Below are positions 11,685 to 64,000 of a stretch of DNA of 64,000 nucleotides, piece after piece (the first letter of the stretch is position 1; each line of letters opens with the position of its first letter). The notes below the pieces were generated by a model, which ran no database searches, was not told where the DNA came from, and was given only the letters and a program-made list of their open reading frames with translations. Made by a program: the position numbers and the translations under genes. Source of the stretch: Morchella semilibera (taxonomy: Eukaryota; Ascomycota; Pezizomycetes; Pezizales; Morchellaceae); NCBI GenBank assembly GCA_009192285.1, contig WBVU01000008.1, forward strand, positions 2,242,370-2,306,369, given 5' to 3'.

Positions 11685-13725
11685 TGTAGGAGGGTGCTTT
11701 CCTTTGTGTTAGTATGCAGAGAGGATATGGGAGGTTTATTGGCATTGTTTTTGAGTTTGAGATCTGTAGAGTGCAATCGTTAGTATACTCTGGCTGTTGA
11801 GTCTGCAATTACTAGCAATCTTTTTAAGCCTTGAGACCGCCAATAATAGCGTGGGTTCGTATTGAAACATAATTAATTAGTTACAAGAGCAAAGATGTAC
11901 CATACATGTCACCCCTTCAACCCGTCTATCCTCGCCTAGAATACGGTAAGTACTATACAGTAAAGTACCTACTAGGACCTACCGGTGAATGAGGGTGTGG
12001 TGTCGGTGTCAATGATCGTTCTGCAGGAAACCCGGATCAACATGTACATGTAGTTGACTTTAGTTCCAATGCCAATGACTGAACTACATGTAAAAACGCT
12101 GTACTTAAATGTACACTTGGATACATGTACTCTATGTAGGGTGGTGGTGGTGGTGCGGGTTAGGGTAGATGTGGGTTAGGTGGACTTGCCGCTAGATCCC
12201 GTCCTCCAACTCCACAGAAGGAGGGTGTGTACATGTAGTGGGCCGTGGCTAGCCCTGGCTGCGGCGGTAAACCTAACCCATAGAATTGGGGAGGATCTAG
12301 GTTTTCTTCCTCTACTTTGTCACCATCTCTAACGCACCGTCTCTATCCAATCATCCCTACCCCACTAACTCCAGCCCTCCCCCCCCCCCCCCCAGCTTCG
12401 TGTATCTACCCTCACCGGCACTAACACCAACATCGTGAGTGAACCACCACTAGCTACGCCCGCAGAATAGAGTAGGGAAGTATGGTTGCTACCCACACCC
12501 GCCCGCGCTCCACTTTCTTTTAGGATGCACATGTACTACTAACCAAACAACAGAGAGAGAATAATCCCCCAGGGCCCAGAGCTTAATCCCTCTTAAGGCC
12601 TACCCTAATTGGAGGAGGTTTATTAGGAAATTCCTAAGCCTGGCCCGAGAGAAGGCGGTTGAAATTGTGCCTTGAAGCTTGAGGATCTCCCCCCTTCCTA
12701 GAGAACGAAGTGCCTAGCGGCGGACGCGCATTCCCGGATGGCAGTTATATGTTTGATATAAATACTGTGCATAACTCATAGGAGCAGGGATAGGCAAAAC
12801 CCAGGGAGCTAGAGCTAGGTCTTCTAGATATGGGATACCGCGCCATCAAAAGTAGTAGAAAGAAATGGGGTCTTCTTCAAGCCATAGTGTACCAAGAAGC
12901 CCGGCAAAACTTGACATTTCAGGACTGTTATGGCAATCTGGAACTTTGAAGCTGATTTGGCCCACCAATTAAGCCGGCTGGATGAGTCACAAAGGGCCTC
13001 CTGCCTGTGAATTTGTGGGTGCAGGTTTGGCACCTTAAAGCTACCTGCTTAACAAAGGGGTAGATACCTAGAATTCTACTCAAAGAGGCCCCTAAAAATC
13101 AGGTCAATTAAAGAAGCATTTACTTCAGGTGTCTGTCTCAAGCAGAAAGTAATCCCAAAGAACATCGGAGACAACTTCCTAAACTTGCGCTGTATGAGGC
13201 AACTCTAGGTAAACGCAGTCGTAGTACAGTCAGCTCTTTAAAACCATACCAAGCATCCCGCAGAGAGCACTACGAAGGGACCACTGTCACCCGGACAGGC
13301 ATCTACCAAACTGCCATGAGCTATAGCAAAGTGCACAAATAGGTGTTTTACCGCTTATTAGGGGAGCTCTTAGATATTACTGCCAGTACACAGATCAGGA
13401 TATTTAGGTCTTTGAGGCTACTCACAATAATCGGTAGAGAAGACTAAGTACTTCTACATACCTCCGCCGTCTGACGATATGATGTACCTTGCCCAATGTG
13501 AGAATGGGGGGACAATTTTTCAAGCTGCTAAAGCTCCATTTCCTTTTCTGTATAAGAGGAATCGTTTAATTTGTCACGGGGACTATGCGTTATATCCAGG
13601 ATTTCTTGTAGCTCTTCATAAATGTGTCTCGAGGCACACATATGATCCCAGAGCAGATTATCATCCTTATAGTTACCTTTATATCGCCATGGACACGCCC
13701 GACACTTTATTTAGAGACTACAGCG
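11685..13725. other. gene-poor spacer with palindrome cluster
   Basis: No gene is supported. Between 12040 and 12535 there are seven copies of ACATGT, most inside TACATGTA. Interstitial GGGTTAGG-like repeats (about 12158-12181) and a long C run (12371-12394) also lie here. Reading frames at 12824-13033 and 13479-13760 lack codon bias or recognisable domains. Confidence 0.45.
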
Positions 13726-14181
13726 GCTATTATTGTAGGGGGGTAGGTAGGTACCCTTAAGGGAGATTCGGTTGTATCAGTAAACGAGGGATGTGAAACG
13801 ATCAAAAAGAAAAATAATGCCTCGATTGGGATTCGAACCCAAGCTACCCTCACAGCTCTGTGCTTCTACGTGCTGAGTTTCTAGGTGTGTTAACCACTAC
13901 ACTACCGAGGCTTGTCTGCAACAGCGGGACAGGAAATTGTAAGCCTGAGCCTAAAGTCCAAGTTACTACAACAACACGGACTAAAGATGTTTACCTCTTA
14001 AATTAAAGGAGCTAAAAGGACCGAAGCACACTGGACTACTAACCCATCTTTTGATATCTCATGTTCACTATTATATTTGGATTCACATCTTGGCTCATAA
14101 CGGTCTAGTGCTCACCAAATAGCACAGGTGTCCCAAGCCTGCACTCCTAGAGAACAATGCCTGAGTAGTGCCTCAACTATC
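13726..14181. repeat. tandem direct repeat, copy 1 (456 bp)
   Basis: This is the first unit of a head-to-tail duplication. It begins with GCTATTATTGTAGGGG and ends at CTCAACTATC, directly followed by copy 2. The two copies match almost throughout apart from a few substitutions and short indels, which suggests a recent duplication. Each unit carries one minus-strand tRNA-like sequence. Confidence 0.85.
13818..13911 (-). pseudogene. tRNA-like sequence in repeat copy 1
   Basis: Read on the minus strand, 94 bases start GCCTCGG and end TCGAGGCA. The acceptor stem pairs over all seven positions (one G-U). The A box is GGTAGTGTAGTGGTTAAC and the T arm is TTGGG-TTCGAAT-CCCAA. The middle (about 45 bases) does not give a normal anticodon stem with T33, even allowing for an intron next to the anticodon. 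It therefore looks like a tRNA-derived sequence with intact Pol III boxes rather than a working tRNA. An unusual intron-bearing tRNA cannot be excluded. Confidence 0.55.
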
Positions 14182-14621
14182 GCTATTATTGTAGGGGGTA
14201 GGTACCCTTAAGGGAGATTCAGTTGTATCAGTAAACGAGGGATGTGAAGCGATCAAAAAGAAAAAATAATGCCTCGATTGGGATTCGAACCCAAGCTACC
14301 CTCACAGCTCTGTGCTTCTACGTGCTGAGTTTCTAGGTGTGTTAACCACTACACTACCGGGGCTTGTCTGGAACAGCGGGACAGGAAATTGTAAGCCTGA
14401 GCCTAAAGTCCAAGTTACTACAACACGGACTAAAGATGTTTACCTCTTAATTTGTAGGAGCTAAAGCACACTGGACTGGTAACCCATCTTTTGATATCTC
14501 ATGTTTACTATTATATTTGGATTCACATCTTGGCCCATAACGGTCTAGTGCTCACCAAATAGCACAGGAGTCCCAAGCCTGCGCTCCTGGAGAACAATGC
14601 CTGTGTAGTGCCCCAACTATC
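14182..14621. repeat. tandem direct repeat, copy 2 (440 bp)
   Basis: This is the second unit of the duplication, about 16 bp shorter than copy 1 through small indels (for example a missing GTAG near the start and a shortened segment near 14450). It ends at CCCAACTATC. Confidence 0.85.
14270..14363 (-). pseudogene. tRNA-like sequence in repeat copy 2
   Basis: This is the counterpart of 13818-13911. One substitution changes the 5' acceptor strand to GCCCCGG and so breaks one stem pair. The A and B boxes are unchanged. The loss of a pair fits decay without selection. Confidence 0.55.
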
Positions 14622-15386: not shown

Positions 15387-15511
15387 CCATCTCCGAGGCC
15401 GCTCAAGCTGCCAAGAACGGGACCAAACAGTTTATAGACCTCTACGCGGTCTATGTACCTACGGTGGACAAAAAAAAACACTCTTCAGAAAAAACGGTCG
15501 GGAATCATTGA
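15387..15511 (+). pseudogene. possible NTF2/Nxt1-like exon remnant
   Basis: Just after a CT-rich stretch ending in AAAG, codons give AISEAAQAAKNGTKQFIDLY and then VYVPTVDKKKH, with mostly C or G at third positions. This looks like the first helix of an NTF2-like fold (Nxt1/p15 type). The rest of such a domain does not follow: the frame ends at 15511 and sequence after about 15470 is A-rich and unlike the family. I read it as a gene fragment. It could also be an exon of an unrecognised small gene. Confidence 0.3.
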
Positions 15512-15785
15512 TGGCGCTGCCAATCCAACTACACCAACACTCACTCACGCCATGGTTACAGAGGGAAAAGGAAAAGAAAAAGAAAAACAGAAGCAGATAC
15601 TTCTAACACGACACACGGGAGCCCGCGGTGTGTCCTATGGCTACATGTATCTATATACACCTCCACGCCCCCACGCCTCTACACAGGTACATACGTTTAC
15701 AGGACAGGACAGGACAGACACAAACAGAAAAAACAGAAAGACCGAAAACCAAGACCGGAAGAAAGAAAGAAAGAAAGGAGGAGAA

Positions 15786-19407: not shown

Positions 19408-20255
19408 AGGGGGCACTATTACTATTACTAATACTATTGTAATTGTGTGGACCTTTTTTTTTTTTTTATTTATTTCCCCCGCTGCTGTGTATGTGGGAGC
19501 AGGCTTCTCTCCCCCCCTTTTTTTTTACCCTTTATTTTTTTTACTCCCTTCGATAGGGCATAGATGGGGCTTCTCCGGTGCACGGTACGGTGGGCGGGGC
19601 GCACCTTCCAGTAATACATACACATAGTAGCAGGGGTATCTGGCGCTTTCTTTTTTTCCTCTCTCTCTCTCCTTTATGTCTCTACGATGTAACTTTACTG
19701 CATGTAGTTGAATACTGGGTATTATCACATGGCAATGGCAATGGCAATGGCACTGCAATACAGTCACCCGGAAACTGTGCATGGAGTGACGTGTGTTGGC
19801 TGTTTGTAGGAAAGAAGGGGTGGTGTGGTGTGGGTTGATGGGTCATGGACTATCACTCGCTCATACCACCACCACCACGGCGATGGTTCCTTGATAGGCA
19901 GACACAGAGAGGAAGCAGGGCCTAGGACGAAAGCCATCCTGTATGCAGGTCGGGGCGCGGGGGGAATTCATAATCGATGGATGGGGGGATCGCAACTGGG
20001 AAGCTGTCCGTAGGTAGGGGACGGGTACGGGCTAAGAACTGGGGGTGTCTGCAGGCGCGTGCACGCGGGCGATGGTGACGGATGCTTGACAAGAGATGTA
20101 CCTCATGTACATCTCTAGAAACTGTATAAGGGTAACTGTCACTATATAGGGTTAGTAATTGATGTAGCCTGGGGGGGCTCTACTTACATACATTTACATG
20201 TAGGGCCGCCGGATTATGTAAAACCCGTCTTTTTCCCCCAAGTGTGCGGGTTGCG
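19408..20255. other. spacer with simple repeats
   Basis: There is no gene. T-rich tracts lie at 19450-19470 and 19515-19545, and an (ATGGCA)-like repeat at about 19730-19752. One TACATGTA lies near 20195. Confidence 0.4.
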
Positions 20256-20430: not shown

Positions 20431-21723
20431 TATGCGGAAAGGTTGGCGCGAGGGGGGTGGGTTCCTTGGTTCATACAAGTACTTTTGTCGAGTCACCCAG
20501 CTTGACCTGCAGTTACAGTAGTTGTACCAGGAGAGCTCTGCATCTTTAAATAGTGTTTTTGCCTGTGTACATACATGTAGCTTCCCCGGCTGGATGGGTA
20601 GGGTGGGTGGGTACATGTAGTACCGAAACGCAAAGACTAGAGAGAAGCTGACGCCCGCATCCAAACTGCCACCCGCCTGGGGCCCAGCATACTGCGTGCT
20701 CTGTCTGCACTACATACTTGCGGTGAAACTAAGTTAGCCACCAACTAACCCCACCATTCCCATAAGCTCATAAGGCGGGACATGGTTGTTTTTGGGTGTG
20801 AAAATGACTGTGAATTTGATACACTTGGGTTTAGCTAGTGGTTGAGATTCTGTATGGTCTCAAGTCTGGTGGTGGGGTTGGATGGTCAATTGCTAGCACG
20901 ACGGGGACAATGCTTAATTTCACCCCCAAGTGCATACAGTCAGTGAAAAAGCAACGCCCTAACAGGCACGGTGCTGTTACAACGCGAGGCATCGTTTCTG
21001 CCTGTTGTATAGTCTACGGGATATATCCTGGCCTTTTGGCTGGGTTTGGGGCGCTGCATACATGCGGCCCGGTAGTAGGAATATGGGGGGTGTAGGTACA
21101 TGTAGATACATGTACTTCTAGGAGCTCGGCCTGGCCTAGTCTGATCTAGGAGTGGGGTTATGACCGTGCTGCTCACAACTTGGGTAAAGATGGGACTAGT
21201 CGTTGGTTTTTAAGCCGCACCTCTACTAAGAGAACGGTTTAGGACCCAGGCGGCGGAGATTCGAATACCATGGGTGTAACATGGCAAGTAGCCAGGAGCA
21301 TCTATTTAAACCAGGGTTGCACAATCGTTAAAAGGCCCCACCCTCAAAGTGTTTATTCGATATGGCAGTCCAGACCAGCCCAGATAAACATTACACAAGG
21401 TTCTACATCTGAACTGCATGTATCGTATCGGCGACTCTTGCGTTAGATGCATCTTGGCATCCGCCCGCACCAATCAGTCAAGGCCCTTCCGCACCAATCA
21501 GTCATGGCCCTTATGCACGCTAAAGTCTTAGCTTATCGATAAGACGCCGACCGAACGGCGACTCCATGTGAATCCCTGCAGGAAACACAGAACGCCGAAC
21601 AATCCGCGGGGAACAGACATAACCTTAGTAATCTCGTTTGAGAGGATCATAAATACTAGGTCTCATCCCGCCGCATCTCTCTCTCGAAACATCAACCCTG
21701 CATTACTACATACCACTACCATC
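20431..21723. other. spacer and promoter of the small Cys-rich gene
   Basis: Four TACATGTA palindromes lie between 20570 and 21115. Sequence at 21470-21500 contains a short direct repeat (GCACCAATCAGTCA twice, 21469 and 21491). No gene is seen. Confidence 0.4.
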
Positions 21724-21950
21724 ATGTGTAAACCCGCAAAATGCAATGCCTGTGGTGAGTGCTGGCCTTTACTCTTTTGGCCTCTTGGTGTGTGCGAGTA
21801 TTCGCGGTACTGATAAGACCCGTTACAGGCAAGAAGAGCTGGTGGGGCTGCGGCAGCCACATCCCCAACGTCATGGACGCGATCCCAAAGGAGGAATGGT
21901 GCACCTGTGAGAAGCCGGCTGGCAGCGAGTACCCCCCGATTGCTAGTTAG
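21724..21950 (+). CDS. tiny cysteine-rich conserved fungal protein
   Basis: Two exons, 21724-21754 and 21829-21950, encode 50 residues. The pattern is MCKPAKCNACGKKSWWGCG, then HIPNVMDAIPKEEWCTC. The five to six cysteines in C-x-x-C and CTC arrangements suggest a metal site or disulfides. I recognise this as a widespread short ascomycete protein with WWGCG and EWCTC motifs, but no function is known to me. It has no signal peptide. The intron (GTGAGT...GTTACAG) splits the codon after CNAC. The gene would be missed by pipelines that drop proteins under 60 residues. Confidence 0.85.
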
Positions 21951-23102
21951 AGGTAACGCTCAAGCCGAGTAAGAATGTTTTGAAGGCTTTGCTGTATGGA
22001 GTTTGGCGGAGGTCGGTTCGTGTTTTGAGGTGGGATGGGGGGGATTTCGTTTTGCGGTGTTGGAATTTATTTGTAAGCCAAGGGTACCCCGGCCCTTTAA
22101 ATAAAGAATGATATCCTTAGAGCCCATAAGATTATTCCGACCTTTAAATAGGAATTGATTGTAGATGACTGAGCCTATGGGATAGTGCATGAGTAACAAA
22201 TCAGCAACATATACGTTGAGCCACTGTGAGAAGCTTTCGCAGGATCATGTTTAAACATCAAAGACTGTATCCCGTATCGTAGTGCTAGAATACCACCTAT
22301 TAGCCCTAGGTTCTATTGTTGCAAACCTGAACCACAGAGCTCAGATTTGCTGTCAGTTTATATCTCCGCCTTAGAAACGGCTAGGAATTTATCCTCTCAT
22401 GGTTAAAAATAACCAAACTCCCGCACCCAAATACCAAGCTTAATTCTGAAGGACTCGAAAATATCAGGCCGACCTTACTGCAATCGAGCGATCTGGACAA
22501 TCAGCAGTTGTTGAGCGAATAATCACGAGCTTTTGTTTGCCCTGCCATCTTCCTCACATCATCGTTGGTTGGTGAGATATTTGTTGTACTATTATTTGCT
22601 GTAAACTCTGGGATCAAAGGCTAGATGCTGATTGAAAGTGTATGTAGTGGGGGAAGGAGCGGAGGTTGTAGAGGAGAGTAGTACCTAGGCTATCCCCAAA
22701 GGTGCCCAGGTAGACCCCTTACCCAACATACATAAAGACTTCAATCCAAACAACGCCCTGCGCTGTGGTACCCATAACATTGAATACACATATTTAAACA
22801 CCACACATGACGTGTAGCCTCAGTAATCCTTAGGGTGGATAGGATTGGGAAGGATCAAATTTAGGTGCGCGAAGCTCCTACAAAAGCCTAGTTTCAAACC
22901 GCCAACCAAGCCCAAACAAGTGATACCTCCAGCAAGTTTTCTATAGAGGAGCACCAACACGTCTCTAAAATGCAAGTTTTCCAAACTACAGTTAACAGAA
23001 GGTTCTTGGGTCAGTATTGTTGATTATTATTTACTTAATCGGGAAATTGTTATCTTATCGGGAGATAATTATCAGATCATCTCTTATCCTTACTGTGACT
23101 CG
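21951..23102. other. spacer
   Basis: These 1.15 kb are AT-rich and hold no gene. The region near 22700-22900 has short open frames without bias. Confidence 0.4.
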
Positions 23103-23103
23103 C

Positions 23104-23116
23104 ACCCTAGCCCTAA
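23104..23116. promoter_or_regulatory. telomere-like ACCCTAGCCCTAA box upstream of RPS2
   Basis: The box lies about 180 bp before the RPS2 start codon. It matches the CCCTA-type elements seen in ribosomal protein promoters of filamentous fungi and, as TTAGGG, the Tbf1 site. The role here is inferred from position and sequence only. Confidence 0.45.
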
Positions 23117-23293
23117 TTAATATATCAAGGCCCACATGCCAAGCCCACACAAAATTCCACGATGCTCTCTACACCCAGCAAAAATAATCCCCTCAACACC
23201 AAGTAAGCATCACGACGAATCACCCACGGACAGCCCGCCCGATCCAAACTTCCCTAAACAAACCCCTAACACCAAAAACAACAACCAGGAATT

Positions 23294-24287
23294 ATGGCTG
23301 ACGCAGCTCAAGGAGGACGCGGTGGTGGATTCGGAGCCCGTGGTGGTGACCGTGGTGGTGACCGTGGCCGTGGCCGTGGTGGACGCCGTGGACCCCGCAG
23401 AGGTGCTAAGAACGAAGAGAAGGAATGGCAGCCGGTTACCAAGCTTGGACGTTTGGTCAAGCTTGGAAAGATAAAGAGCATGGAGGAGATCTACCTCCAC
23501 TCTCTCCCCATCAAGGAATACCAGATTGTGGACTTCTTCTTGCCCAAGTTGAAGGATGAGGTCATGAAGGTAAGCTTGAATTCCTTCCTGATCTCTGGGT
23601 CGAAGTGGTCTCGAGGACTGGGCGCGGGGGAGCTTTAAACGCAGGAGCGACGGGAATTGAAGGAATTGGGTAAATGGGAGGGTCAATCACTAAACCGCAC
23701 AACTTTCTAGATCAAACCCGTCCAGAAGCAGACCCGTGCCGGTCAGCGCACCCGTTTCAAGGCCATTGTCGTCATCGGTGACTCCGAGGGCCACGTAGGT
23801 CTCGGAATCAAGACCTCCAAGGAAGTCGCGACTGCCATCCGTGCCGCTATCATCATTGCTAAGCTCTCTGTCCTCCCCATCCGTCGTGGATACTGGGGTT
23901 CATCTCTCGGAGAGCCCCACTCTCTTGCTGCTAAGGAGTCTGGAAAGTGTGGTTCCGTTACCGTCAGGGTAAGCTACAAGGTCCTTTAGTTTTCAATGTG
24001 ATAATCTGTAATGCTAAAACGTCAAATAGTTGATCCCTGCTCCCCGTGGTACTGGTTTGGTCGCTTCCCCCGCCGTCAAGCGTCTCCTCCAGCTTGCTGG
24101 TGTCCAAGACGTCTACACCGCCTCTTCTGGTTCCACCAAGACCCTCGAGAACACCCTTAAAGCTACCTTCGCCGCCGTCGGTAACACCTACGCTTTCCTC
24201 ACTCCCAACTTGTGGAAGGAGACCAAGTTGCTGAGAAGTCCTCTGGAGGAGTTCTCCGACGACTTGAGGAGGAAGGAGAGGTATTAG
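23294..24287 (+). CDS. RPS2: 40S ribosomal protein uS5 (S2)
   Basis: Exons are 23294-23569, 23711-23968 and 24030-24287, all in phase 0, giving 263 residues. The N-terminus is the usual RGG-rich tract ([16 protein letters not shown]), target of arginine methylation in other eukaryotes. Then come [36 protein letters not shown] across the first join, the S5 fold with [20 protein letters not shown], and the C-terminal domain [21 protein letters not shown] across the second. It is part of the decoding-site region of the 40S subunit. Codon use is strongly C/T-ending, as expected for a highly expressed gene. Flanked by an upstream telomere-like box. Confidence 0.97.
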
Positions 24288-25245
24288 GCGGTTGTTTTTT
24301 TCCAGGTTAGGGATATTAAAAAAAAAATTAAAAAAGGTGCTTTCTTTTTCTCCAATTCTAGCTAATGATTATCCTGTTCAATGTGCCATGTGATTCCCGA
24401 AGAGGCAAACCCTTTGCTCTTATCAATATGGTGACAATTGTTTTTTCGTGGCTTGACAAGAACCCTTTAGCTTCGAAATACCATTTAGGACAGTAATCAG
24501 AACCTGTGACTAGGTGGTCTTTCGCATGGGGAATCAGTTGCCAATATCAGATGCGGTGTCTCCAGTAATGTTGGCATTTAGGTGGTCGGAATGCTTTTAT
24601 AAACCTTTATTAGCATTTTCGGCATGATAGAGTACTATTCCCGAAAAAAAAATAATAACTTGGTTCTCAAACTAAGCTCATGTATCTCTTTGTACTGTAA
24701 AAGATCCGTTAGTAGGGCTGAAGCACTCCGGGTACTCGCGGTATATGGAATCTACAATCTTGGGTCTAAGCATCAACCCTGATGCTATTTTGTTCAGTCA
24801 TCCTAGCCCTAAGGACATGAGTTATTGAAGCAAGGGCAAGGCCGAAGCTCAAGAAAGTTCTCGGTAAAGAGCTTACCAGGCTAAAGCTCAGGCTTTGTTT
24901 TAATAGAAGCCCACCCCGGCCCCATGCTAAACCGGGGGTTTTACACCCGAGTTTAAGATAAACAGTATTCCTGAGATACGAACATCGCTGCCTCTGCGCT
25001 TTCTCTAATTCAGTACAATCTGCCAACATGCCAGACAAATACCCACCATGCCCTCATTCCGTAACTATTGATTGTGCATGACCGATTTTGGAGTAGCATC
25101 ATGGTATCATCGTAGATATTAGCTATTGTAAATCCTTTTTAACGACTAATGGTACAACAGTTTAGCAATAATTTTTTGGACGTAAAGAGAACAGGAAAAA
25201 AAATCATTTCGAAACCCATCTTAGGAGAAAACACCCACCGGTCTT
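24288..25245. other. spacer between convergent RPS2 and U2AF
   Basis: These 958 bp between two 3' ends hold no supported gene. A CCTAGCCCTAAGG box lies at 24804-24816, the same kind of motif as upstream of RPS2, but here it is downstream of both genes. Confidence 0.4.
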
Positions 25246-26033
25246 TTACTCCCGCCTGCGCCTTCCATCAGCCGGTGAAACGCTCCTGCTGACACTCCTC
25301 TTGTCCCTTCCCCTAGCCCTCAACCATTTCTTCATTCCTAGCTCCAACTCCCTTTCCAAGTCTTTGCTTGGCTCCTTCCTGTGGATGAAATTGCAGAATC
25401 CTCCTCTTACACAGCCTTCTCCGCTATTTAAACGGCAACAAGCCTCCCTAAAATCTGTAACAGGCGACAATTCACAGTATATGGGACGCGCCGCATACCA
25501 TCTCGCATTGAGCGCGTCGCAGGCCGACTGCGCGTCTTCCTCGTATTTAAAGCGAGCATAAACGTTACCGATCAGATCTATGGTACGTTGCGCGCTCAAT
25601 TAGCTTCACATACCGCAAACTCGGCCATAACGTCCCTGGGCGTCAGAAAAGAGAGCAAAAACACATACGATCGTTATTGTTATCACACACGACAACCTCC
25701 TCCACTTCACCGTACTTGCACATTTCGCAGAAGAAATCCTCGTAAAAGGCGTCGAAGTGGTTCTGCAACTGGCTAGGATTCATCTTGTTTTTTGGGTCGA
25801 ATGCTGGGTTCTGGTAGAGGTTTGGGAGGAGAATTGTCTGCGAATATGAGGGCTTGACGTGCTTTCGGGAGCAGCGGTCACCGTGACGGCAGGCACCGAT
25901 TTTGTAGTAAAAGGAGCCTATTGTGCTAAGTTAGTAATGACAGCGAAGGGAGACAGACGTAAGAACAGAGGTGCGACATACAGTTAACCTTATCCTGCTC
26001 GGTACCAAAGATTGAAGCAAGATAGTTGGCCAT
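25246..26033 (-). CDS. U2AF1: U2 snRNP auxiliary factor small subunit (U2AF35/23)
   Basis: Exons are 25982-26033, 25669-25917 and 25246-25577, giving 210 residues. The first zinc finger is C-SFYYKIGACRHGDRCSRKH (CCCH). The U2AF-homology RRM follows (NPSQLQNHFDAFYEDFF, then CKYGEVEEVVVCDNNNDHL and GNVYARFKYEEDAQSA). A second CCCH finger (CCRLNSGEGCVRGGFCNFIH) and a short Arg/Ser tail follow. The protein recognises the AG at the 3' splice site, as a partner of the large U2AF subunit. Length is close to the fission-yeast U2AF23. All joins restore conserved residues. It sits with three other spliceosome genes in this window. Confidence 0.96.
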
Positions 26034-26672
26034 GATTTTGCTGTTCTAGTAGAGATGCTAGGTGTAGAAGATTTCGTGAAGTTGGTGATTTGAGAGGGAG
26101 GCAACGCGTGTGGAAGATGTGGCGATCGTCACAGCTAACGGAGGCTGAAAAGCCAAGCATCTGAGTCAGCCGCACCGCTAATCACTCGATGGAAGACCCT
26201 CAAATACATAAATGTATGCACCGAAACCTCCTCCCACTAAACCTCACTGTATAGCCGGGTCCGTAAAGTTTTAGCCACCTAGTCTCAAAGCTTATGAGTT
26301 CAAATAATGATATAAACAACCGGATAAAAATGACTACAAAGAGAAATTTACAGCCACACACCCCCACACTGCCGTCAATTGTAACGCTTTGTGGTGGGCG
26401 TACTGGCCAAGAACTTCTGAGTTTAAATATTTAGTTCTTGGCGACTGGTTTTTGGTGCGGATAGCCCCGCCAAGAGCTCAAAATCTAAAACCAAAAACTC
26501 GAAAACATGAGCGCGGCCAACACGCTCTAATGTTACCTTTCAAGGAAGCGGATATTTTTATAGGGTGCCTAGGTATGGACTACATGTAGTTATATGCTTG
26601 TACCAGGTTACCCATCTTAAAAGTAGATGCCCAGTCGGTCAGAACATTGAAAATGTCGATTAAAAAATATGA
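26034..26672. other. spacer upstream of U2AF1
   Basis: This stretch holds the U2AF1 promoter and AT-rich sequence. One ACTACATGTAGT palindrome lies at 26579-26590. No gene is seen. Confidence 0.4.
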
Positions 26673-29616: not shown

Positions 29617-29784
29617 GGCTACATGTACACACCATGTAGTGAGTTCAGTGTGGAAGAAATGGACAGTTGTGGGTGTATTTATGATATAGTCAGTGTTCAT
29701 ATAAGTTATATTTGGTCGATTACGATACATATTATCCAAAAGGGTGCATAAATGTACACACAAACGCCCCCCCCCCGTCTTCAA

Positions 29785-29931: not shown

Positions 29932-30348
29932 ACCGCTTAAGATATTCTTTGAGCTGGCTGCGGCGGCACTGACAAAGCCCACTTTATACGCATACATGTA
30001 GTCACACACGGTAGAGTATATATTCTCTTAAGGAAACTACATGTAATCATTCAATCGTTATGGTACAGGGATTTTAAGCAGCTACTCCACGTAAACCGAG
30101 TGAGTAGACATGCATCTCTCGAAAATCCCTGCAGCCCCTGCCAGCCAGCGAGCATCTACACAAAAGATACACTATTTAATAAGAAATATAGAAAAGTAGG
30201 AAAGGACATAGAAATAGTATCGAACCCAAAAAAAAAAAATGAAAGAGAGAAAATGAACCATTCGCGCCTCCGAAATATTTTACATATTCTAAACACCATT
30301 TGCGATTAGGTTAATCGCTGCGCCTAATAATGAACGTAACGCCAGGAA
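29932..30348. other. spacer downstream of GLE1
   Basis: This stretch has two TACATGTA palindromes (about 29994 and 30036) and A-rich sequence (30180-30250). No gene is seen. Confidence 0.4.
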
Positions 30349-32191: not shown

Positions 32192-33573
32192 GAGTGCGGT
32201 TTTAATTCCTGCGTGATCCTAAATCTGGGGGCACTGAGGAAATAAGCACGTCTGGTTGGTTCACGGGGAGGATAAGCGAAGATCAGGCGGTCCGCTGTCG
32301 GAGGAGAAAACGGTAGTAGAGCGGATTGGAGCAGACAGAAGGGAATAGAGGTAAGAGGCAGAGAGATAACTCTTGACTCGATAGTGGGGGAGTGCGAGCA
32401 ACATACCGATTGGGGAACTGACGATTTGTGCGTGTGGAGGTTGTATGATGTCGAGGGGGGGTGGAGGCTGGGATGTGAGCTGCTGTTGGTGATTTAGCTG
32501 CTACACGCGATCACGGGTGTGGCTAAACCCAAATAAATCAGTGCTTGAGAGGCATGGCGTAGGCGCGCTGGTCAGTCAAGAAAATGTGGGCAAATTTATA
32601 ATTCGCATATCACCCAAAGTGGTTTGTGCTTTGCCATGACACATAACTAACAAGTCCCGTTGTCGATCAGCTAAAAAAAAAGAGCTCTTTAGTAGAATTC
32701 AAAATACCAATCTCCTAATATAACCTACATGTGTCTATAACATCTATATAATCTCATATAGTAGCAATACAGGCGCTTGAGACTTTAAATATGACTCATT
32801 GTATATTCTGTAGGCAGCCAGCTGCGAGTGCCACACTACAATCTGCCGTGCTTCAAAATAAAATTTCCTATTTGTCAAGAACTGAGATCCCCGCTATCTA
32901 ACCGGCCGTTTAAACCTATGTACTTGTATGTATCATGTAGTATTATTTCCCATCACAGACAGCAGCAACATGCACCCCCAACACAACTCGTTGAAGGCTT
33001 ATTTCATGGCTAGCGAGCTAGAAAACCCGTCTTATAGACATCGAGTGATAATATATGATCGGGTGACCTCCGCAAGTTGTGGGATATATGAAGTACATAT
33101 ACTTCTACATATATACTTTGTGATTAGATTGTATGCTTTGTTTTTGCGTTATGTAATGGTTATACTGGGGTGGGCTTACTTAGATGCATGTACTTAATAT
33201 TGTGTACTCTATTTTTGTGATTGATAATTACTTACATGTACATACATGTAGTAGTAGGGTTTGAAGTTTTCTTTCGGGATAGTGGTGTTTGGGACCCGAG
33301 CCGCCGCTCAAATTATTGTTTCTGGCCGGGGGGGGGGGGGGGTGCTAGCCTTGGTAAGATCAAACAGCATGCTATTTTTAATATATACACAAACACGAGG
33401 TGCCCCATAAATATAGGCCTGCCTTCTAGGAGTAACACCGATGAACAATACGCACAAGCCCGAAGACACCAATTTGAAGAAAAGATAAATGAAAACCAAA
33501 ATCCATGTAGCTACCCCTCCCCCCCCCAAAAAAAAAACGAAAAAAAAAAAAAAAACACGAACACACATACTCT
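32192..33573. other. GLE1 promoter region and spacer
   Basis: The first 300 bp are the GLE1 promoter. Later sequence is AT-rich, with two overlapping-type palindromes at about 33235 and 33245, a run of 16 G at 33330-33345 and A runs at 33528-33555 close to the SPT3 stop. No gene is supported. Confidence 0.4.
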
Positions 33574-41806: not shown

Positions 41807-42269
41807 ACTATGGTAGAATAATGTAGCTTCTAGGGGGTTGGTTTATAGGAAAGCCACTGATTGTAATAAGAGTGTTAGCAGAAATATGATTGACTATTTC
41901 TTTTTTTCTTTTCCGGGAGCAAAATGCTATTTGTGTATATCAAATTACGGAGCACTCAGGAGAGTAGCATGCACTTTCGATATTACAAATGACGATTACT
42001 ACATGCAGTCACAAATGATTACTTAGAGGGGCTCGTTAGATCTCAGTGCATAATATCGAGACGCATGATATCGTACTCCGCTAGTAGCCGTGGTTTCTGT
42101 CGGTCCTGGAGAGTTAAAGATACATGTAATACATGTCTTGGCGTACCATGCACCTTGCCCCTTGGCACTTCAGCTCTTGATGTTCGTTTGTCCATGTCCA
42201 GTCTTGTGCATCCTGCCAACGACCTCCTGCATTGATCAACACTATTTACTCCCCACCCCGCGTTCTGTC
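41807..42269. other. spacer, SLY1 end to PRP3 start
   Basis: These 463 bp hold the SLY1 3' region and PRP3 promoter. ACATGT palindromes lie at 42121 and 42130. Confidence 0.45.
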
Positions 42270-46585: not shown

Positions 46586-46670
46586 TGGCATGGGTTCGAT
46601 CCCCCCGAACTGCGGACCTGCAGCCTGCAAGGTACGCGCTCGTTTAGTACTCACTCTACCGACTCACTAC
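46586..46670 (-). pseudogene. tRNA-like fragment
   Basis: On the minus strand, an A-box-like GAGTCGGTAGAGTGAG is followed by CTTGCAGGCTGCAGGTC and a B-box-like GCAGTTCGGGGGGATC. The order resembles a tRNA whose loops have drifted. A TACATGTA palindrome starts right beside it (46668). Confidence 0.4.
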
Positions 46671-48019
46671 ATGTACCTACTTTTAGGCACGTGTAGCTAG
46701 GCCAGGGCCAGTTCATGTCTCGTAGCACACGCCCGACACAGGTACACCATACTCAATTCCACTTCCTACGGTCGATAACATACAAAACCCCATCGTTACC
46801 AGGGGCTCTAGAGATGGTTGCCTCACTCTGGTCTCTAATTCGTGGGTACAGCTTGCATGGTTTTGTTTCCTGGGGTTGACTTCTCGCATCATGCAGCGGT
46901 CCCAAACCGTGGTATCGGCTCTCGCTGGGACGTATGTATGTACATGTATGTAAACCAATCAAATACCGAAGAGGACCCAAGTGGGCTGACTGTACCTACC
47001 CTACTATCGGTTTGAACAAGTCCGTTTAGCAAGAGGAGGGCTCTCTCTCCTCTCCTTGAGATCATCACGAACAGAGGTAATTACAACCGGTCTCTCACCA
47101 CATGTACTACTTCACATTAGAAACTAATTTTCTGGAGTATAGGGGGCGAGACATTCCATTGTGCAAAAAGAATCTAAAGGCTATCGAAAGAGGCCATCAT
47201 ATCCAATGATAAGGAAATGACCTAGTGTATAGAGTCACTAAAATATGAGCATCCCCAGGTAGAGAGAACATGGGTGTGATTATATATGACTTGAATTGGT
47301 TTGCTTGCAAAGGATTTGTCAATGCACGAAACATTCGCGCAGATGCTTCTCGAGAACCGGTTCAAAACACCCAACCAGCAAATCATAAACCGATGAAAGC
47401 ATTAGCTACGGTCCCGGATCTCTTACGGTCTCTAGTGACCCTTTCTAGCCCAGATTTCCTTAGCCAGAATGGTCGCTACATGAGGGCATCTGCGTTTTGT
47501 GGCCGTGTTCCCAGCTAGGTAGCTTTTCAGGTACCAGATTCTTTTGCCGTGCCTGATGTGCTAAAATCCCAGCGCTGTGTTCCCGCCTGCTCGTCTGTCC
47601 TTTTGTAGTTGCGTAATTATACCAACGTACGTGCCACCTACACCATGGGATATAAACTACATGTAGGTGCACAAATAGGGTCATGGGATATCACTCGGAC
47701 ACGGATTTATCGGCCCTAAATACATACATGTAGATAATCAGCTAGCGCACCTTCTCGTAGTTGAGGGGGAAATGTCCCCTGTTTACCCCCCCCCCCCCCC
47801 CATGAGGTAAGCTAGCAAATCGTGATAACAATTTGTCGGGCCCAACGACAGACCACACCTACTTAAATCCAGGTCTTTGGTCGGCCTAGAGCTACAGAGT
47901 GTTACCCTACCATATTAAAGTACTAGTTGGATCCAAACAGCGGACGTATATATATGCCCGTTGTAGTAGTATCAAGGCTTCCTCCAACTCACCCTTAGGT
48001 TTCACAATGAAGTATCTCC
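46671..48019. other. spacer
   Basis: No gene is supported. Palindromes lie at about 46938, 47099, 47657 and 47726, and a C run at 47788-47801. Confidence 0.4.
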
Positions 48020-48448: not shown

Positions 48449-49821
48449 GCGGTCAGCGGGTTCTGAGGGTGTAGTAGGTGTATGGAGTTGTAGATGAGGA
48501 GTGAGGTATAAAAGAGTATCTCGGACTCCCTGAGAACAATTGAATATCCGTGACCCGTCATGTGTTTGGGAGCAGTCGAGGGAATGGCCGAGCTTGGAGG
48601 ATGTATGCGTTTAAGCATCCATGTTTCGAAAGGGCTCATGGTAAACCAAATCACCGTGGCCACGTAGAGAACGTAACCTTGTGAGTGCACATGTATCCTA
48701 AAGGAGAGTCTACGCGTAAGGGGGGCGCCTGGTACAAACAGTCAGGTTAGCTATAAGACTCCATTGCAATCTGAGTATAGATAATGACCTGCATCACGGC
48801 TATTAATCATTTAGCAATAGCAGCAACAACAATTTGCACTATGACTGCTGGTTCTAGATTGTTAATTCTCCCGGGTGAGGATCTGTGAAGCGGGACTTTC
48901 GAGCCAGTCTTTACAGTGGTGGTTATCACCACTACATGTAGTACACGCCGAGGCTCCATATTGATTTGTCTCCCAATGTACATTGTTATTACAGCTCCTC
49001 TAATCTCCGCACATGCAGTTTGTAGGGACTTAAGCGGCACTACCTATATATATAACCGATTATAAAAATCAGCATTGATACAGGTCAGCTATCATAGATC
49101 CAACGTAGTTCAATTGTTCCCATCCACAGGTTTTTGGCTAATAGAAGCTCAATCACCGGAATGGGAAGTGTAGATGACCGCTCAACCACGGAGCATGCAA
49201 AGGAACATGCAAAGAAATCATTGACTATAGGCAGGGTAAGTCAGGTGAATTTGATTGGGACCTGGCCTAGCGGTGGAACATGTGATCGTGTGGGTGACCT
49301 CACATCATCATGAGCTACTGTGTTTCACATTCAAGTTACATACATGTCTGGCAATGTACAAGCAAGTATATCGTGTATTTCCACCTCAACGCCCCACACG
49401 CCTATATATGTCCTACTCAGTCTAAGATCTGGATCAATTTATCCCTCTGGTCTGGTCCCATTTTTGCTACTACATATAACACCAGCAGCCTCACACAGTA
49501 TACAACAAAACATACACATAATACCCGTATAGGCACTAGACTGTAACGAACAGAACGGAAGAGGACAGAAGGGGACAGGACAGAACAGCCAGTATTGAGC
49601 CCAGTCCCAATCAACCCAGCCATATACACTCTTCCTGCTTTCTAAGAGCACAACAGATAAATATGAAAGCGCCACAATGGTATTTATAAATAAAACAAGC
49701 TGTGTGTTGTGCTGTAGGGCAAGCGGGGGGCTACGTGAACAAAGCGAGACGGAAACAGAAGAACAGAAAAGGAAAAGGGAAGGGAAAGAAAACGGGCGCA
49801 TCTCCGCCTACCGCCACCCAT
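48449..49821. other. spacer
   Basis: The first about 165 bp may be coding (see the preceding gene). The rest holds palindromes at 48688 and 48931 (ACTACATGTAGT), GACAG repeats near 49560-49590 and no supported gene. Confidence 0.4.
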
Positions 49822-50930: not shown

Positions 50931-52519
50931 CGTGATGGATTAAGGGGGGGGGGGTTTCTTCTAGGTACTGGTTCTATTGAGACCTGTCCTTGTTTGTAGA
51001 AGGAGATCTGAAGCTCAAGGGAGTCCAATATTCAATATAGACGATGTGAGTATAAGTATAGAATAGAGAAGTAGAAGGTGATGTTATTGAGTATTGAGGG
51101 AAAGTGTCAAGATATCCGACGGGTTGTCGTCAGATGCCGGCGGCCGGGGGGGGGCGGGAAAATACATGCATCAGATGCCTGCCTGAACTGTACTGACTGA
51201 CGAGTACGGAGAGTCCCTCCCACGGTGACGCAACAATTGGGTTAATTTTAATACCCGCAGCAGCTCCGCCCAATAATCATCAAGCACATATGATATTTTT
51301 GGCAGTGGTGTTCGTAACTTCTCTATCTATGTAGGCACATAATCTCTCTATCTACCAGCCGAGTGTCTATCTAAACCAAGCACTCGATCCATCGATGCAA
51401 CAAACAAAATCAGGAAACAGGAAACAGGATCGAATTAATTATTTACGCCCCCACCCCCCACGCCAGCCACTCTCGAAATGCGGAATGCGATGGATGTGGT
51501 GGTGGTATGTACCCTACCTACATAACCTACATGTAATGTATGCGAGCTGCAAGGTTGTTTTGTTGATCATGCATGCGTTACAGATGGAACGGTACGGTGA
51601 GGTTAGTTATTAAATCGTGCGCTTTCGGGACCTCAATTAATGGATACAGTTCTAGTATTCGTCGCATATTGGTAATTAATCAATGCCCCAATCTGCTAGG
51701 GTCGCGGTAATTAAATTAAAAGCCGCCATGTGAAGTTAATTAGCTCGGCATCATGGTACAGCACTCGGTTGTGTCCTTGGCAAGTTAATGTCGGCTTGCT
51801 TTTTTTTAATAATTATAATTATTAGGACCCGGTTCACGTCCACTCTTGGAGGCCTAGTAAGCGCGCGTGTGTGAAGCCGTAGCGTATCCGGTAAGTGGAT
51901 ACCAAGTTAAATACATCCTCTATGAAATACTATCGGTCGGAGTCATTGGCCCAGAGATCGATCCGTGGGCTATGGTCAAAAGGCATGCACCCACAGCTCA
52001 ACCATAACCAGATTTATACAACCTTTAGGGTTGGTGGGGTGGGGAGAACGAACTCCTAGACCAACAATTGGTGCTGTAGGTTATTCTTGGGCTGGACATG
52101 GGGTTAGCACATGGGGCCGCACAGTTTCTCACTCGTTCACTCTTCACGATGTTTCACTCGCTTGCGCGCATGGGACGTGGTAACTCTAACGGGAAAGTGC
52201 ACCACAAGCTGAGGGAATAGACATGACATCTCACTCGACACTCACTCTCTATCATCCGGAACTCTAAATGCTTGATGTCCAGAGTTGTAGATAGTATTGC
52301 TACCTTATAATTTAAGAGCAAAAGAAAACAATATTATTGGGGACGCACCACAAGAAAAGGCGAAAACAATAAAGAAAGGTAAGAAAGAAGCAAAAGGCGC
52401 CTCTAATCGCTAAAATCACTATTACACAGTGAGACATATCTATCGGGAGTGGAAAGAAGAGGTCGGTTGTACTAAATGGGAGAAGGGCCCGAAGACCCAG
52501 GTTCACAGGCGGGTTTAAC
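50931..52519. other. NUS1 promoter region and spacer
   Basis: The upstream part is NUS1 promoter with a G run (50944-50952). The rest is AT-rich, including ATTAATTAA-type motifs around 51600-51750 and one TACATGTA at about 51528. No gene is seen. Confidence 0.4.
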
Positions 52520-55613: not shown

Positions 55614-57512
55614 TGGGTTGATGGTGGGATTGGGACTGTTTGTATATTAATATTTGGGTGAATGGGGTGCTTTCTTGTCTCTACGGGATTAGTATGGAAT
55701 TGGCCGTGTGTGATGTTGATTCGATTGTGAGGCTGATCATCTTAAGGCCCGATTAATTTAAGGCCTTGATTTGTGTCTGCATATATCTAGATCGCTCTTA
55801 CGCACATATCTTGGTAGAATTATAAGTTAGGATACAGCCTTATTTGCGCAGAACACGCGGTTTTTGACGCTGGTGTAAAATGCGATCGCTGACTTTGTGC
55901 GTCATGTTGTATCACTCGGTATATTTCCGGGTTGGCGTGTTGTAGGGTGCCTAGGTCTGCATATTCTCCAGTACATATGTTACTACCTTGAGGACGCGGT
56001 GTGTTTCACTTGTTGGTGTATAAGACCTGGTCAATCGTACTGTTCAGTCCTCTAGAGTCAGATCTCGGAATGGCGATTGCAGCGTTGTTGTTTTGTTTAA
56101 TTTAACCTTACCAGTGTTAAATTTAAGCAGGTGCGTTGATTCGTTCTCCCCACTACATGTAGTTACACGTATCTACATGTACTCATAATTCCGTCCGGCA
56201 CTTCTAGGTGCCCTGAGCACCCTCAATCGATATTCAATGCTTATCTCTTTATGGTGGATGCGGACTGCACTGTTTCAATGGCTAATTCAGGTCTGACCTC
56301 ATAGATATAAATAAGTCTGTGACCATAAGGAAGTAGAGCTTGAATCAGCGCATATCTCTATGGTTAGCATTTGTAAAAAGAGACATTCACTGCAGAGTAG
56401 TTAGCGAAATTCAGACTTCGAAGCGTTTCGCTGTGGTGCCCATTGTAGTCTACATCTACCATACCAATTAGAGCAATTCAGAAAATTTCTCCTTAATTTA
56501 GGACTTTTTCTTTTTAAAAATGCTAGTTTTCTTGTAGACAACGTCGGGTGCGCAAATGTCAAGTATGACTTTGTAAGTTGATCAGGGCGCAGAACAGAGG
56601 TAAAGAGCCAATGAGAGCACTTAGTAGGACCCAGAGACCTATGGGGTGTGTCCTTGATCATACCTCACCATACGCTGCATAATCAAAAGTCGGCTGTCAA
56701 GGTTTGCAATCGTATCCACACATTCCATCTAGGATCTGGATAATGAATGCTATCGAGATAAGATCAAGTATTCAGAGTGAGGGGTTGATATGATCTTTCC
56801 CTGGTTTATTTTTCCTAGTCCTGTGGTAGTGGGGCCTAGTCTCCTGGCCCTCGGTGGATGACCCGGGTCTCGTGGTTTGTGAGCCTAGCGGGAAAACATT
56901 TCGATTTTCTGGCGATGATATTAGTATATAGGATGGGTTTTCTGGGGTGGTGTCTGGGGTCCCCCTTGGTGGACCAACACAGTTTGTTACCCCAACCAAA
57001 CAATAGGTAGGCCGGTGGGGCTTCATTTTGAGTGTCTAACAGTGCAGTGCCAATGAAAAGTTGCTTGCATCTCCCCGAAAGGATCAAAAAGCTCTAGTTA
57101 ATATTGAGGCTGTACAGACCTAGTCTGTTGATCGAAGAAGGTATCGTTAGGCGGGATTCTCGTCAAAGCCCTTAACATCTGCGGCTAAGCTTCTGGGGTG
57201 GGCGGTGGGGCCTCCTAGGGAGTGTTTGAGCGGGGTAAAGGGCCTTAAACTTAGGATATCTTACTTACATGTACTTGCCCGTGCTCGTTTCGGTGGCATC
57301 GCCTGGGCCGCCTAGGTTAGATGTGAGTTGGCACGACGATGACTTTGGCCAAGGTATGGTGGACTACATGTATGGGATGTACAACTTCACGGTAGGCGAT
57401 AGAGAGCCAAGTAGGGCAAAGACAGCCGTCTCCCCATGTTGGTGGAAGCGTAATTAAATGGAATGTGGGGCTTGGAGAACAGGACATGAATGATAAAAAA
57501 TTAAGCAACATC
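55614..57512. other. long spacer
   Basis: No gene is supported. Palindromes lie at 56152, 56173, 57264 and 57363. Reading frames at 56401-57087 on the minus strand have no recognisable domain. Confidence 0.4.
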
Positions 57513-57680
57513 GCCGAAGCGTGGCCGAGTGGTGATTCACTTGACTACGTACCGAGACACCTATGGTTCAACTCCAGGTGGGAGCGGTGATCAGAATGCC
57601 CAACATGGTAGCGACGCTCTTGAGGGATGACACTGATCACATAAGTCTTTTGTCTTTTTTTTCTTTTTTCTTTTTTCTTC
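57513..57680 (+). pseudogene. tRNA-like (Ser/Leu-type) SINE head with T-rich end
   Basis: The A-box GTGGCCGAGTGGT (57521-57533) matches the tRNA-Ser/Leu type, and the B-box GGTTCAACTCC (57565-57575) follows at a tRNA-like distance. About 70 bp later comes a T-rich tract (57643-57680). No matching acceptor stem was found, so this looks like a SINE rather than a working tRNA. Confidence 0.5.
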
Positions 57681-59665: not shown

Positions 59666-60856
59666 GCTACCGGATATTGAGTTCGATGACGAGTAGGGCA
59701 GTGGAATTAACTTATAGCAGGCCTATTATGCCTGACGCTGGTATCCTCAGGGACTATGGCTCCGTTCTTAGTAGGTATTTTGTGACGTCTTTGGGAAGAT
59801 CTTGTTTCAGGGCTTGATTATTTTAATTCATGTATATGTAAGTACATGTACGTACTGGGGAGTTATGATAGGATGATTAACGATGCACATGATATATCGA
59901 TAGTTATGGGGTCAAAATTACATGTAGTTAATAGATACATACATATATATAGATATTCATGTATGTACGTAATTGGAGGTCTTAATGCATTTGAATATTG
60001 TTTTTTTTACTTGATAAGGAATGAAATTATGTCCTTCTAAGAGTAATACTAATACGCTACATGCTATAACTGTGATAGTACATGCTAGCTACATGTGGTA
60101 GCGCATAATACTTGAGAATCGTCAACTTCGACACTTGAATGATACGGGAAGCAAATTTGACACTACATGTACATGTAGTTAAGATTTGAGGGCGTGGTCT
60201 AAATATTATAAACTCTAAGGGATGGGCGAAGTATCAATTGCCAAAGCTGACAACTGTTAAATGCGCTCTAATTTATATACTTACTCTATATGCACGGAGG
60301 ATTGAGCACTGCGGCGGCCATACCAAGTTCCAAAGAAGTATATACGTCAGACCCGAGCAACAACAGCAATTGTTGAAGGGTATCATCTAAATTAAATGCT
60401 CCCGGATTCATCAATAAATATAAAGAGTACATATAACATCCATATCTCGAGCACGTCCGGATCCCTATTAATTGAATTAATATTTTACTAAAGGCCGGCA
60501 ATCGATACTACAATTACAATATATATTGTACTAGTTATATTCAAGTATATAATATGCAGTCTCATACCGTATCATCTCGTTAAATTACATGTAGTTGCGA
60601 GGCAGTACATGCTCATGTACTTTTCTTGACATGTAGGCAGTTATGAAATGGTTACACAAACCTGCCACTAATCCATTTTAGTATGCGGCTCTGGAGCCCC
60701 TGCAGGTGCTCTACAGCTTAGGACACGAAGACCTTCAACACGACAAGGCATTTGAACACAACACTTCTACCGTCGGAAAACTAGTACCTCAAATACCACA
60801 ATAATATTTTAATCCTTTCCACTCGAGAGGGCACTCCCTTTATCCTGGGTAGCACA
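59666..60856. other. spacer, GPI14 upstream region
   Basis: This AT-rich spacer has six palindromes (59843, 59918, 60163, 60169, 60584 and a partial one near 60625). No gene is supported. Confidence 0.45.
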
Positions 60857-62199: not shown

Positions 62200-64000
62200 A
62201 ATGGTTTGGTGATACCCGGAGTGAATATTTAGAGGTTAGGAGTTGGCATTGAACAAAATTTGATTGTGATCTAGCTATATCTACTGAATTGTTTTATTAT
62301 ATCGCACCCCTACACCCTTGAGAATCCGCCTCATTAGATTTGTTATTGAGCTAGCCTCGTTCATTGCTACGGCCGTGCCCTCATCAGTTCTAAAAGCTAT
62401 GGAATTACTAAAACGTCCAGGGACTATCTACTTATAACAACACAGGCTCCAGGGGTTTTGAACTTTTGGGAGCGAAAACCCTTTCGGATTGGGATCAACT
62501 TAATACCATATGCTGCATAGATTATCAAACTTTATACTAGAGCGTTTTGACAATGGCCAAAATTGGACCAGAGGCCGGCTGCCAAGAAATACATGTGCAA
62601 CAAGTTCGACCAAAAACCCCAATCCCAATACTTGCTCCTCGACCACAAGTGAAGATATTTAACAGAGAATATATGAGATCTTCTCTGTCTATAACTTCAT
62701 TGCCTTTTAGTCGACTCCTAAGCATTTTCCATACTTCTCCCTGGCGTTAAAATCTGATGACCCAGAAGGCTAATCGTCCTCCTGAGTGGACAGTTGGTAT
62801 CTTATTAATCTGTGCGGTATTTAGACCATTTTATAGAGAATAACAACAGCTTTCCATCTGTCATATCTTGAAACTTTTGCAGAGCTCGTGAAGGGGTGGT
62901 TACATGTATGGTTTGACTCACCGTTAAAAACGGCGGGAACATACACATAAAAGGGGGGGGGGGTTTCCGACGCCGAAAATTCGTCCTGTCGCGATCCCGA
63001 GGTCCCGAAACCAAGGCATATCGTTTCCCCGACGCCTTCAAAAATAGATATAGATTGGCTGTACACTATTAAATGTATGGTAATCGAAACCATGTAGCGT
63101 CACTCACTTGTACTTGGGTTCATAATCAAGGATTTGTCAGATCAGAGTCATTGGAGTCCTTTCGGATAATTCATTACTTAAAGCTTAGGGAAGCATCTGA
63201 AAGGTTTCAAAGGAACCTTGACATGGGAAGTTCGAGTGATATACTATGTCCGAAATTGTATTTTCTCGTCGCCTAAGAAATATATGGACAGGTGTGTAAG
63301 CCTTGGCCTCAACCCACCATCTCAAGAAGGGATTCCCGCGGAAGCCACACCTCGCCTCACACAATGTTAGGGCCTTATATAACGACACTAAACCACAGAC
63401 TACATGTAATTTTATCCCCGAGCCATAGGTCGCCCTTGCCACTCTAGGTCACCTATCTCCACGCGGCAGAAAATTTCAATAGCAGGTGTACCTTTAACGC
63501 GTTGGCTAAAAACTCTATTTCCCTTAATAGTAGGTCCCGAATTATACCTACTCTAATTGATAGTGCGAATACTAAAAGTGCTTATTATAGGAATATAAAG
63601 GACTAAGTCTGGATGGCCAGAAGCACTGTTTGCCACCATGAGCCCCAAGGTCCTACTATTACTAGCTAGCAGGGCGCTCCCGAGGTATATTAAAGTAGGA
63701 GGATGGGCGCACCGAGTTGCCTCTGCCCTACCTTAGGGGCTGCCTTAGTTTATAGCTGCTCACATGAGTCTATACCTCGATTTCATGGTGATGTGAGCTC
63801 GTTAGTACCGGGAGTAAAGCTGGGGGGCTCGTTAGGGTAGTATGTTTGATCGATGTAGCATATACAGTACTGTAGGATTATATTGGCAAGATCTAGATCC
63901 TAAAGATTTGAATTGGCCACCGGTCCCCCACGCTAGATCATCTAAAATTAGAAATAGGAAATGTACTAATTCACATCTTCCTTCATAGTCCCCTTGTAGG
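62200..64000. other. spacer to the window end
   Basis: No gene is supported. Palindromes lie at 62588 (partial), 62902 and 63399, with a G run at 62956-62968. Reading frames here are short and without bias. Confidence 0.4.

Follow-up and report, generated by a model that had tools for sequence, protein, structure and literature searches.

The palindromic octamer TACATGTA occurs in 41 exact copies in 64,000 nucleotides of DNA from the ascomycete Morchella semilibera (contig C22:2242370-2306369; this whole stretch is called the window below). Across the assembly, neighbouring copies show a pronounced excess of pairs with starts exactly 10 bp apart, and it is this spacing that is new here. We suggest, with a probability of about 0.6, that the octamer is the core site of an abundant homodimeric protein, a site that would be bound best as paired decamers and would be kept by selection.

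A sequence-only reading of the window had counted about 40 copies by eye and had estimated that about one would be expected by chance. Both values were close to the computed ones. The coordinates given in that reading were right to 0–2 bases, 100 dinucleotide shuffles yielded a mean of 0.87 copies and a maximum of 4, and a second-order Markov model expects 1.3. The tracts that had been described as sparse correspond to gaps at 1–12,044 and 21,115–26,580.

The whole assembly (56,756,124 bases, i.e. 56.8 Mb, in 23 contigs) contains 22,206 copies, a density of about 0.4 per kb. For comparison, the reversed word ATGTACAT, which is a palindrome of the same letters, has 3,723 copies and is six times rarer. 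The comparison with a reversed palindrome, which the sequence-only reading had proposed, puts the octamer well above the control. The same homeobox and CP2 matches recur at nearly equal offsets on both members of the contig pairs C9/C10 and C12/C13. Some stretches may therefore be represented by two copies in the assembly, either as two haplotypes or nuclei or as duplicates; some loci were possibly counted twice, and not every count is independent.

Further values were estimated from a sample of 274,300 bases with 123 copies, composed of the window, 15 pieces of 10 kb taken at round coordinates (150 kb), and 60 kb of sequence retrieved around matches. The retrieved loci lie mostly around the octamer and contribute 43 of the 123 copies. 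They do not enter the counts of density, repeats and spacers; the flank and profile counts and the totals for coding sequences (CDS) and introns include them. The unbiased sample thus comprises 214 kb with 80 copies. The 15 pieces hold 39 copies; seven of them have none, and one of these seven consists partly of N and does not enter the unique-intergenic rate. One copy-free piece, L040, contains Ty3-type retrotransposon open reading frames (ORFs) with reverse transcriptase, integrase and chromodomain at 3946–7750, and another copy-free piece has a long ankyrin-repeat ORF.

In the full sample, the 123 copies compare with 5.0 expected by a second-order Markov model, a 24-fold enrichment that is inflated by the motif-biased loci. 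No one-mismatch neighbour is enriched more than 2.6-fold in the sample, suggesting that all eight bases matter.

In the sample, the octamer is almost exclusively intergenic. With predicted genes, 79 of the 80 unbiased copies are intergenic and one is in a CDS. The 59.6 kb of CDS contain a single copy, versus 0.42 expected by codon shuffling and 36 expected at the unique-intergenic rate. The 83 introns (6.7 kb) are devoid of it, versus 4.1 expected (P = 0.017). These values lend no support to a coding or splice function. For the window itself, the earlier statement that no copy lies in a coding exon is borne out, as none of the 41 copies is found in a predicted CDS or intron. Sequence that occurs more than once in the sample accounts for 33.9 of the 214 kb and contains one of the 80 copies.

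The flanks of the 123 copies are unrelated and show weak symmetric preferences only, i.e. G/T at +1, T at +3 (149 of 246 half-flanks), A at +4, C/T at +5 and A at +6. The preferred letters are the opening letters of a second TACATGTA placed 10 bp further, and the left and right flank letters are nearly independent at most positions. Three 12-bp palindromes ACTACATGTAGT had been reported for the window (at 26579, 48931 and 56152), and all three are exact. Genome-wide, ACTACATGTAGT is found 442 times, compared with 513 predicted from independent flanks and 2 for the control. Because it is rarer than independent flanks predict, it is not an element of its own, but a product of one-sided flank preferences. 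The unrelated flanks and the single copy in sample repeats also agree with the earlier view that the octamer is not part of a longer repeat, and on these grounds we reject a dispersed repeat or a transposon end.

Spacing of octamer pairs

The copies are clustered. Genome-wide, 2,075 pairs have starts 8–28 bp apart, and 606 of these are spaced by exactly 10 bp. The other 20 spacings average 73 pairs, while uniform scatter would give 8.7. At spacings of 29–59 bp, 1,855 pairs are distributed over 31 spacings, an average of 60. Abutting decamers, with CNNG centres 10 bp apart, are therefore the favoured arrangement. Among 97 listed pair strings, five of which contain three copies and were set apart, 23 have the 10-bp spacing, versus 3, 3 and 2 at 8, 9 and 11 bp. 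The two spacer letters vary (CC/GG 16, AG/CT 12, CA/TG 11 and others 11 in the first 50 listed 10-bp pairs), and thus the 10-bp pairs are not one repeat.

When inexact partners are included, the match profile around the sample copies also peaks at 10 bp (z-score 8.6). It is mildly raised at offsets of 12, 14 and 16 (z 2.6, 3.1 and 2.3) and, for the 123 sample copies, flat at 20 and 30 bp, which speaks against longer helical arrays. A partner with at least five of the eight letters at ±10 bp was found for 39 of the 123 copies (26 of the 80 unbiased ones). The mean for the other 21 offsets between 9 and 30 is 11.2 (unbiased 7.4), and the maximum is 19 (14) at an offset of 16. Overlapping pairs of the form TACATGTACATGTA occur 501 times in the genome, compared with 90 of the reversed form.

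Two of the pairs that had been listed for the window, 21097/21107 and 60163/60169, are present, the latter as an overlapping pair at 60164–60177. A third, 12040/12046, does not consist of two full copies, since its left member reads AACATGTA. The pairs at 33233/33243 (10 bp apart) and 56154/56174 (20 bp apart) are additions to that list.

The palindromic sequence suggests a symmetric reader, and two palindromes that are one helical turn apart and have free spacer letters suggest two readers that are in contact on the same side of the DNA. In the proposed mechanism, a homodimer would bind the palindrome TACATGTA, and binding would be best when neighbouring decamers (NTACATGTAN NTACATGTAN) are each occupied by a dimer, which places the CATG centres, 10 bp apart, on the same helix face. 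Selection would maintain the sites in unique intergenic DNA, perhaps chiefly in promoter-bearing spacers. Because the sites are so numerous, the putative factor would be expected to resemble the general regulatory factors of fungi, opening or marking promoter chromatin, rather than a pathway-specific switch.

The absence of the octamer from the sampled introns and its near absence from repeats argue for a bound protein and against a mutation or insertion process. The sequence-only reading had offered four possible roles (regulator site, motif linked to chromatin state, hot spot of insertion, mutational bias) and had held that sequence alone cannot decide among them. The sequence does narrow the choice: the 10-bp pairs, the empty sampled introns, the background level in CDS and the 1 of 80 copies in repeats favour a protein site over preferential insertion or a general bias in mutation.

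Several observations weigh against a paired protein site that acts at promoters. Excluding spacers with at least 30% repeat, the octamer has a density of 1.11 per kb in divergent, 1.04 in tandem and 0.55 in convergent spacers. This preference for promoters is not significant (41 versus 6, one-sided P = 0.08), and five of the six convergent-spacer copies lie in a single spacer. With a first annotation, the densities at gene starts and gene ends were similar. The gene models were supplied by a purpose-written gene finder, which was first trained on about 15,000 codons and misses genes; a PIG-M and a DUF1365 gene, recognised by Pfam matches, were included manually when the spacers were classified. 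In addition, no candidate factor fits or is supported (see below).

The control words are a further point of this kind. The reversed word ATGTACAT forms 108 pairs at 8–28 bp, 37 of which are spaced by 10 bp, and 60 pairs at 29–59 bp, so that, relative to its number of pairs, its phasing is as strong as that of TACATGTA. This preference of the control for 10 bp lowers our confidence in a protein pair. The spacers GT or AC in a reversed-control pair would create an internal TACATGTA, and the 10-bp signal of the control in the sample decreases from z 2.6 (24 copies) to z −1.2 (13 copies) away from TACATGTA, both being small numbers. The word TACATACA peaks at 10 bp with a z-score of 9.3, or 2.5 when copies within 30 bp of TACATGTA are removed, and TACCTACA still has a z-score of 3.3 at 10 bp away from the octamer. 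These two results show that related TAC words share a weaker tendency to recur at 10 bp, which fits degenerate partner sites but also a feature of the local sequence. Peaks at 10 bp are likewise seen for 24 of 290 unrelated frequent words, some of these 24 being plain repeats, and thus the sample z-score is not unique to the octamer.

Competing explanations

A repair, methylation or mutation process could create or protect the octamer without any transcription factor, an explanation that we regard as rather unlikely. Its model is HIP1 (GCGATCGC) of cyanobacteria, which, according to excerpts of PMC4390886, is likewise an exact, dispersed palindrome of very high copy number. In the sample, a mild enrichment is seen for transition neighbours of TACATGTA, e.g. 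TGCATGTA and TATATGTA, which would be expected of decay products. HIP1 is present in coding sequence too, and a process of this type should reach CDS, introns and repeats. In contrast, no coding enrichment is seen here (CDS are at background), the 83 introns are empty and the repeats nearly so, although young repeats may be too recent to have been reached. The preference of separate copies for a 10-bp spacing also distinguishes the octamer from HIP1 and has no place in such a model.

The octamer could also be bound by a protein that does not regulate transcription, i.e. it could be a chromatin or architectural site for an insulator, nucleosome-positioning or origin factor. The high copy number, the occurrence at both gene ends in the first count and the five copies in one convergent spacer are compatible with this unlikely alternative. 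However, nucleosome phasing would raise the match at 20 or 30 bp, and neither is raised. The higher density in promoter-bearing spacers, albeit not significant, also speaks against it.

Alternatively, TAC/GTA-rich local sequence might have given rise to the 10-bp excess, and perhaps even to the octamer, as a by-product of degenerate microsatellites or of slippage that duplicates 10-bp units. The enrichment of TACATACA and GTAGTAGT in the sample would agree with this, as would the 10-bp preferences of TACATACA and the reversed control. We nevertheless consider this origin improbable. Tetranucleotide repeats would favour spacings of 8, 12 and 16 bp, for which the 97 listed strings include 3, 5 and 6 pairs, versus the 23 at 10 bp. 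Slippage would repeat the spacer letters past the second copy, which is the case for one of four 10-bp pairs in the sample. Furthermore, such repeats would also generate the reversed word, yet this word is much rarer than the octamer. As for a cruciform, a loop-free palindrome of 8 bp is too short to form one.

A transposon footprint is very improbable: TA-CA-TG-TA would be the full footprint of Tc1-like elements (CA...TG ends) at a TA target, and taCATGta is described in excerpts of PMC3520976 as a rare Tc1 excision footprint, with the single-dinucleotide form TACATA being about 2-fold enriched in the sample, yet the octamer is enriched far above TACATA in spite of the stated rarity of the full form, and is found in neither the sampled introns nor, with one exception among 80 copies, the sample repeats.

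Copies and other motifs in the window

The window has ORFs that match the PRP3, Sec1, PIG-M and PfkB families. The gene content points to a filamentous ascomycete, and the predicted ribosomal protein uS5 has its nearest matches in the PDB chains 7r81 and 7olc, from ribosomes of Neurospora and Chaetomium. All copies of the octamer given here are exact matches. The first four are located at 12045–12052, 12085–12092, 12122–12129 and 12230–12237, followed by one at 15642–15649, about 140 bp beyond the 3′ end of a predicted minus-strand CDS, and by three at 20195–20202, 20572–20579 and 20612–20619. A pair with the spacer GA and starts 10 bp apart (TACATGTA-GA-TACATGTA) occupies 21097–21114. The palindrome ACTACATGTAGT at 26579–26590 contains the next copy, and further copies are found at 29620–29627, 29993–30000 and 30038–30045. 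A second 10-bp pair, with the spacer CA (TACATGTA-CA-TACATGTA), is located at 33233–33250.

Six copies (35039–35046, 35085–35092, 35230–35237, 35586–35593, 35617–35624 and 35990–35997) share the divergent spacer between the predicted genes at 34535 (minus strand) and 36384 (plus strand). The copy at 37527–37534 follows, and the copy at 42121–42128 lies about 140 bp upstream of the predicted PRP3 start (42270). Four copies are found at 46668–46675, 46941–46948, 47658–47665 and 47725–47732, one within ACTACATGTAGT at 48931–48942, and one at 51528–51535. The third ACTACATGTAGT, at 56152–56163, contains the copy at 56154, and the copy at 56174–56181 is 20 bp from it. After two copies at 57266–57273 and 57365–57372, the region upstream of the PIG-M mannosyltransferase ORF (60785) has copies at 59843–59850, 59919–59926 and 60586–60593 in addition to the overlapping pair TACATGTACATGTA at 60164–60177, the starts of which are 6 bp apart. 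The last two copies are at 62901–62908 and 63401–63408.

A second dispersed intergenic motif, ATCACTCG, has 38 copies in the 274-kb sample and is about 8-fold enriched in intergenic DNA; two of the 38 are in predicted CDS and none is in sample repeats. Its positions in the window are 324, 8671, 8681, 19852, 26181, 28205, 29072, 33042, 44143, 47690, 55911, 58240 and 63233. The flanks extend it to a bipartite motif, TCAY-N4-Y-ATCACTCG, which looks like the site of another general factor, its layout presumably resembling that of yeast Abf1. Behind TACATGTA, the next most enriched 8-mer in sampled intergenic DNA is CCCCCCCC, and ACCCTAAC is about 4-fold enriched there. The window also contains 27 poly-C or poly-G runs of 8–16 bases, e.g. 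at 12379, 33328 and 47786, and scattered telomere-like words, i.e. TTAGGGT, GGTTAGG and their complements (654, 2632, 6241, 12158, 12174, 22830 and others).

A tandem duplication comprises 13726–14160 and 14182–14600, with 404 of 418 aligned bases identical. Each of its copies has a minus-strand transfer RNA match of 94 bases, probably with an intron; ARAGORN found none. Outside the window, a degenerate 5.8S ribosomal RNA fragment under the Rfam cut-off is located at about 1501–1672 of the sample piece L035, and it is the sole 5.8S match reported.

Candidate readers and known systems

Homeodomain, CP2 and BEN-domain proteins were considered as readers of the octamer. The genome has six Homeodomain (PF00046) matches, counted at the match level. 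A first-look profile search revealed one Homeobox_KN gene (C14:782200, two exon matches) with the recognition helix NWFINARRR, i.e. with Ile at position 50, which we take to be TGIF/Meis-like and TGACA-specific, not Iroquois-like. On this presumed specificity rule, the helix weakens an Iroquois-type homeodomain as the reader. A CP2 gene was seen on two contigs (C12:218754 for one of them) and is closest by sequence to Grainyhead-like 2 and 1. A BEN-domain profile search of the genome gave no match, but no control genome matched either. The Neurospora counterpart of the CP2 protein binds a AACCGGTT-type site, according to the excerpts available, and AACCGGTT is only 2.8-fold enriched in the sample (8 copies).

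The sites of the Iroquois (Irx) TALE homeodomain, ACATGT or TACATGTA, have the same core palindrome (excerpts of PMC3520976 and PMC4726432). No fungal report of the motif was found among the matches listed in a search of the open-licence literature, and the main text of PMC11481914, a paper on Magnaporthe ISW2 that includes palindromic motifs, is without a CATG string.

A close parallel is found in the oomycete Phytophthora. Excerpts of PMC3520976 (2012) and PMC3597505 (2013) describe motif-1 or M93, which is exactly TACATGTA and is abundant upstream of genes: it is associated with 12,070 Phytophthora genes and occurs 4,150 times in P. infestans promoters. It was proposed to be a homodimer site and was tied to hyphal and infection expression. 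KN homeodomain proteins were suggested as its readers by the authors of PMC3520976, and a general growth role was inferred from its abundance by those of PMC3597505. The same exact octamer is strongly over-represented here, too. However, Phytophthora belongs to the oomycetes, unlike this fungus, and a shared origin cannot be claimed. The excerpts of both reports do not mention a 10-bp spacing, and the sister motif of Phytophthora, TACCGGTA (M94), is at background in this fungus (3 copies in the sample, observed/expected 1.0).

With respect to geometry, the pairs resemble the sites of p53 and LSF/CP2, which are also built from two units, the CNNG centres being separated by 10 bp if the units abut. 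In the excerpts available, the p53 site is described as two decamers, RRRCWWGYYY repeated, bound by a tetramer (PMC2518093), and the LSF site as CTGG-N6-CTGG, also tetramer-bound (PMC3348937). In contrast to p53, the flanks here are TA...TA and not purine/pyrimidine triplets, and in contrast to LSF, the CP2 relative of this genome is Grainyhead-like by sequence.

These parallels can be combined into a bolder proposal, which we put forward tentatively and to which we give a low probability. The octamer would be read by a p53/LSF-like genome-wide regulator, a dimer of dimers on abutting CATG decamers with about 22,000 core sites, which would serve as a general promoter organiser, might be a lineage-specific Grainyhead/CP2 protein or have an undescribed DNA-binding fold, and would have converged on the Phytophthora octamer. 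Independent of this proposal, a numerous and exact fungal DNA word is given a testable physical reading, because two palindromes in phase on the helix imply that the protein has a defined geometry. If its reader is a general regulatory factor, it would tell how promoters are marked in this lineage, and whether fungi and oomycetes reached the same octamer independently.

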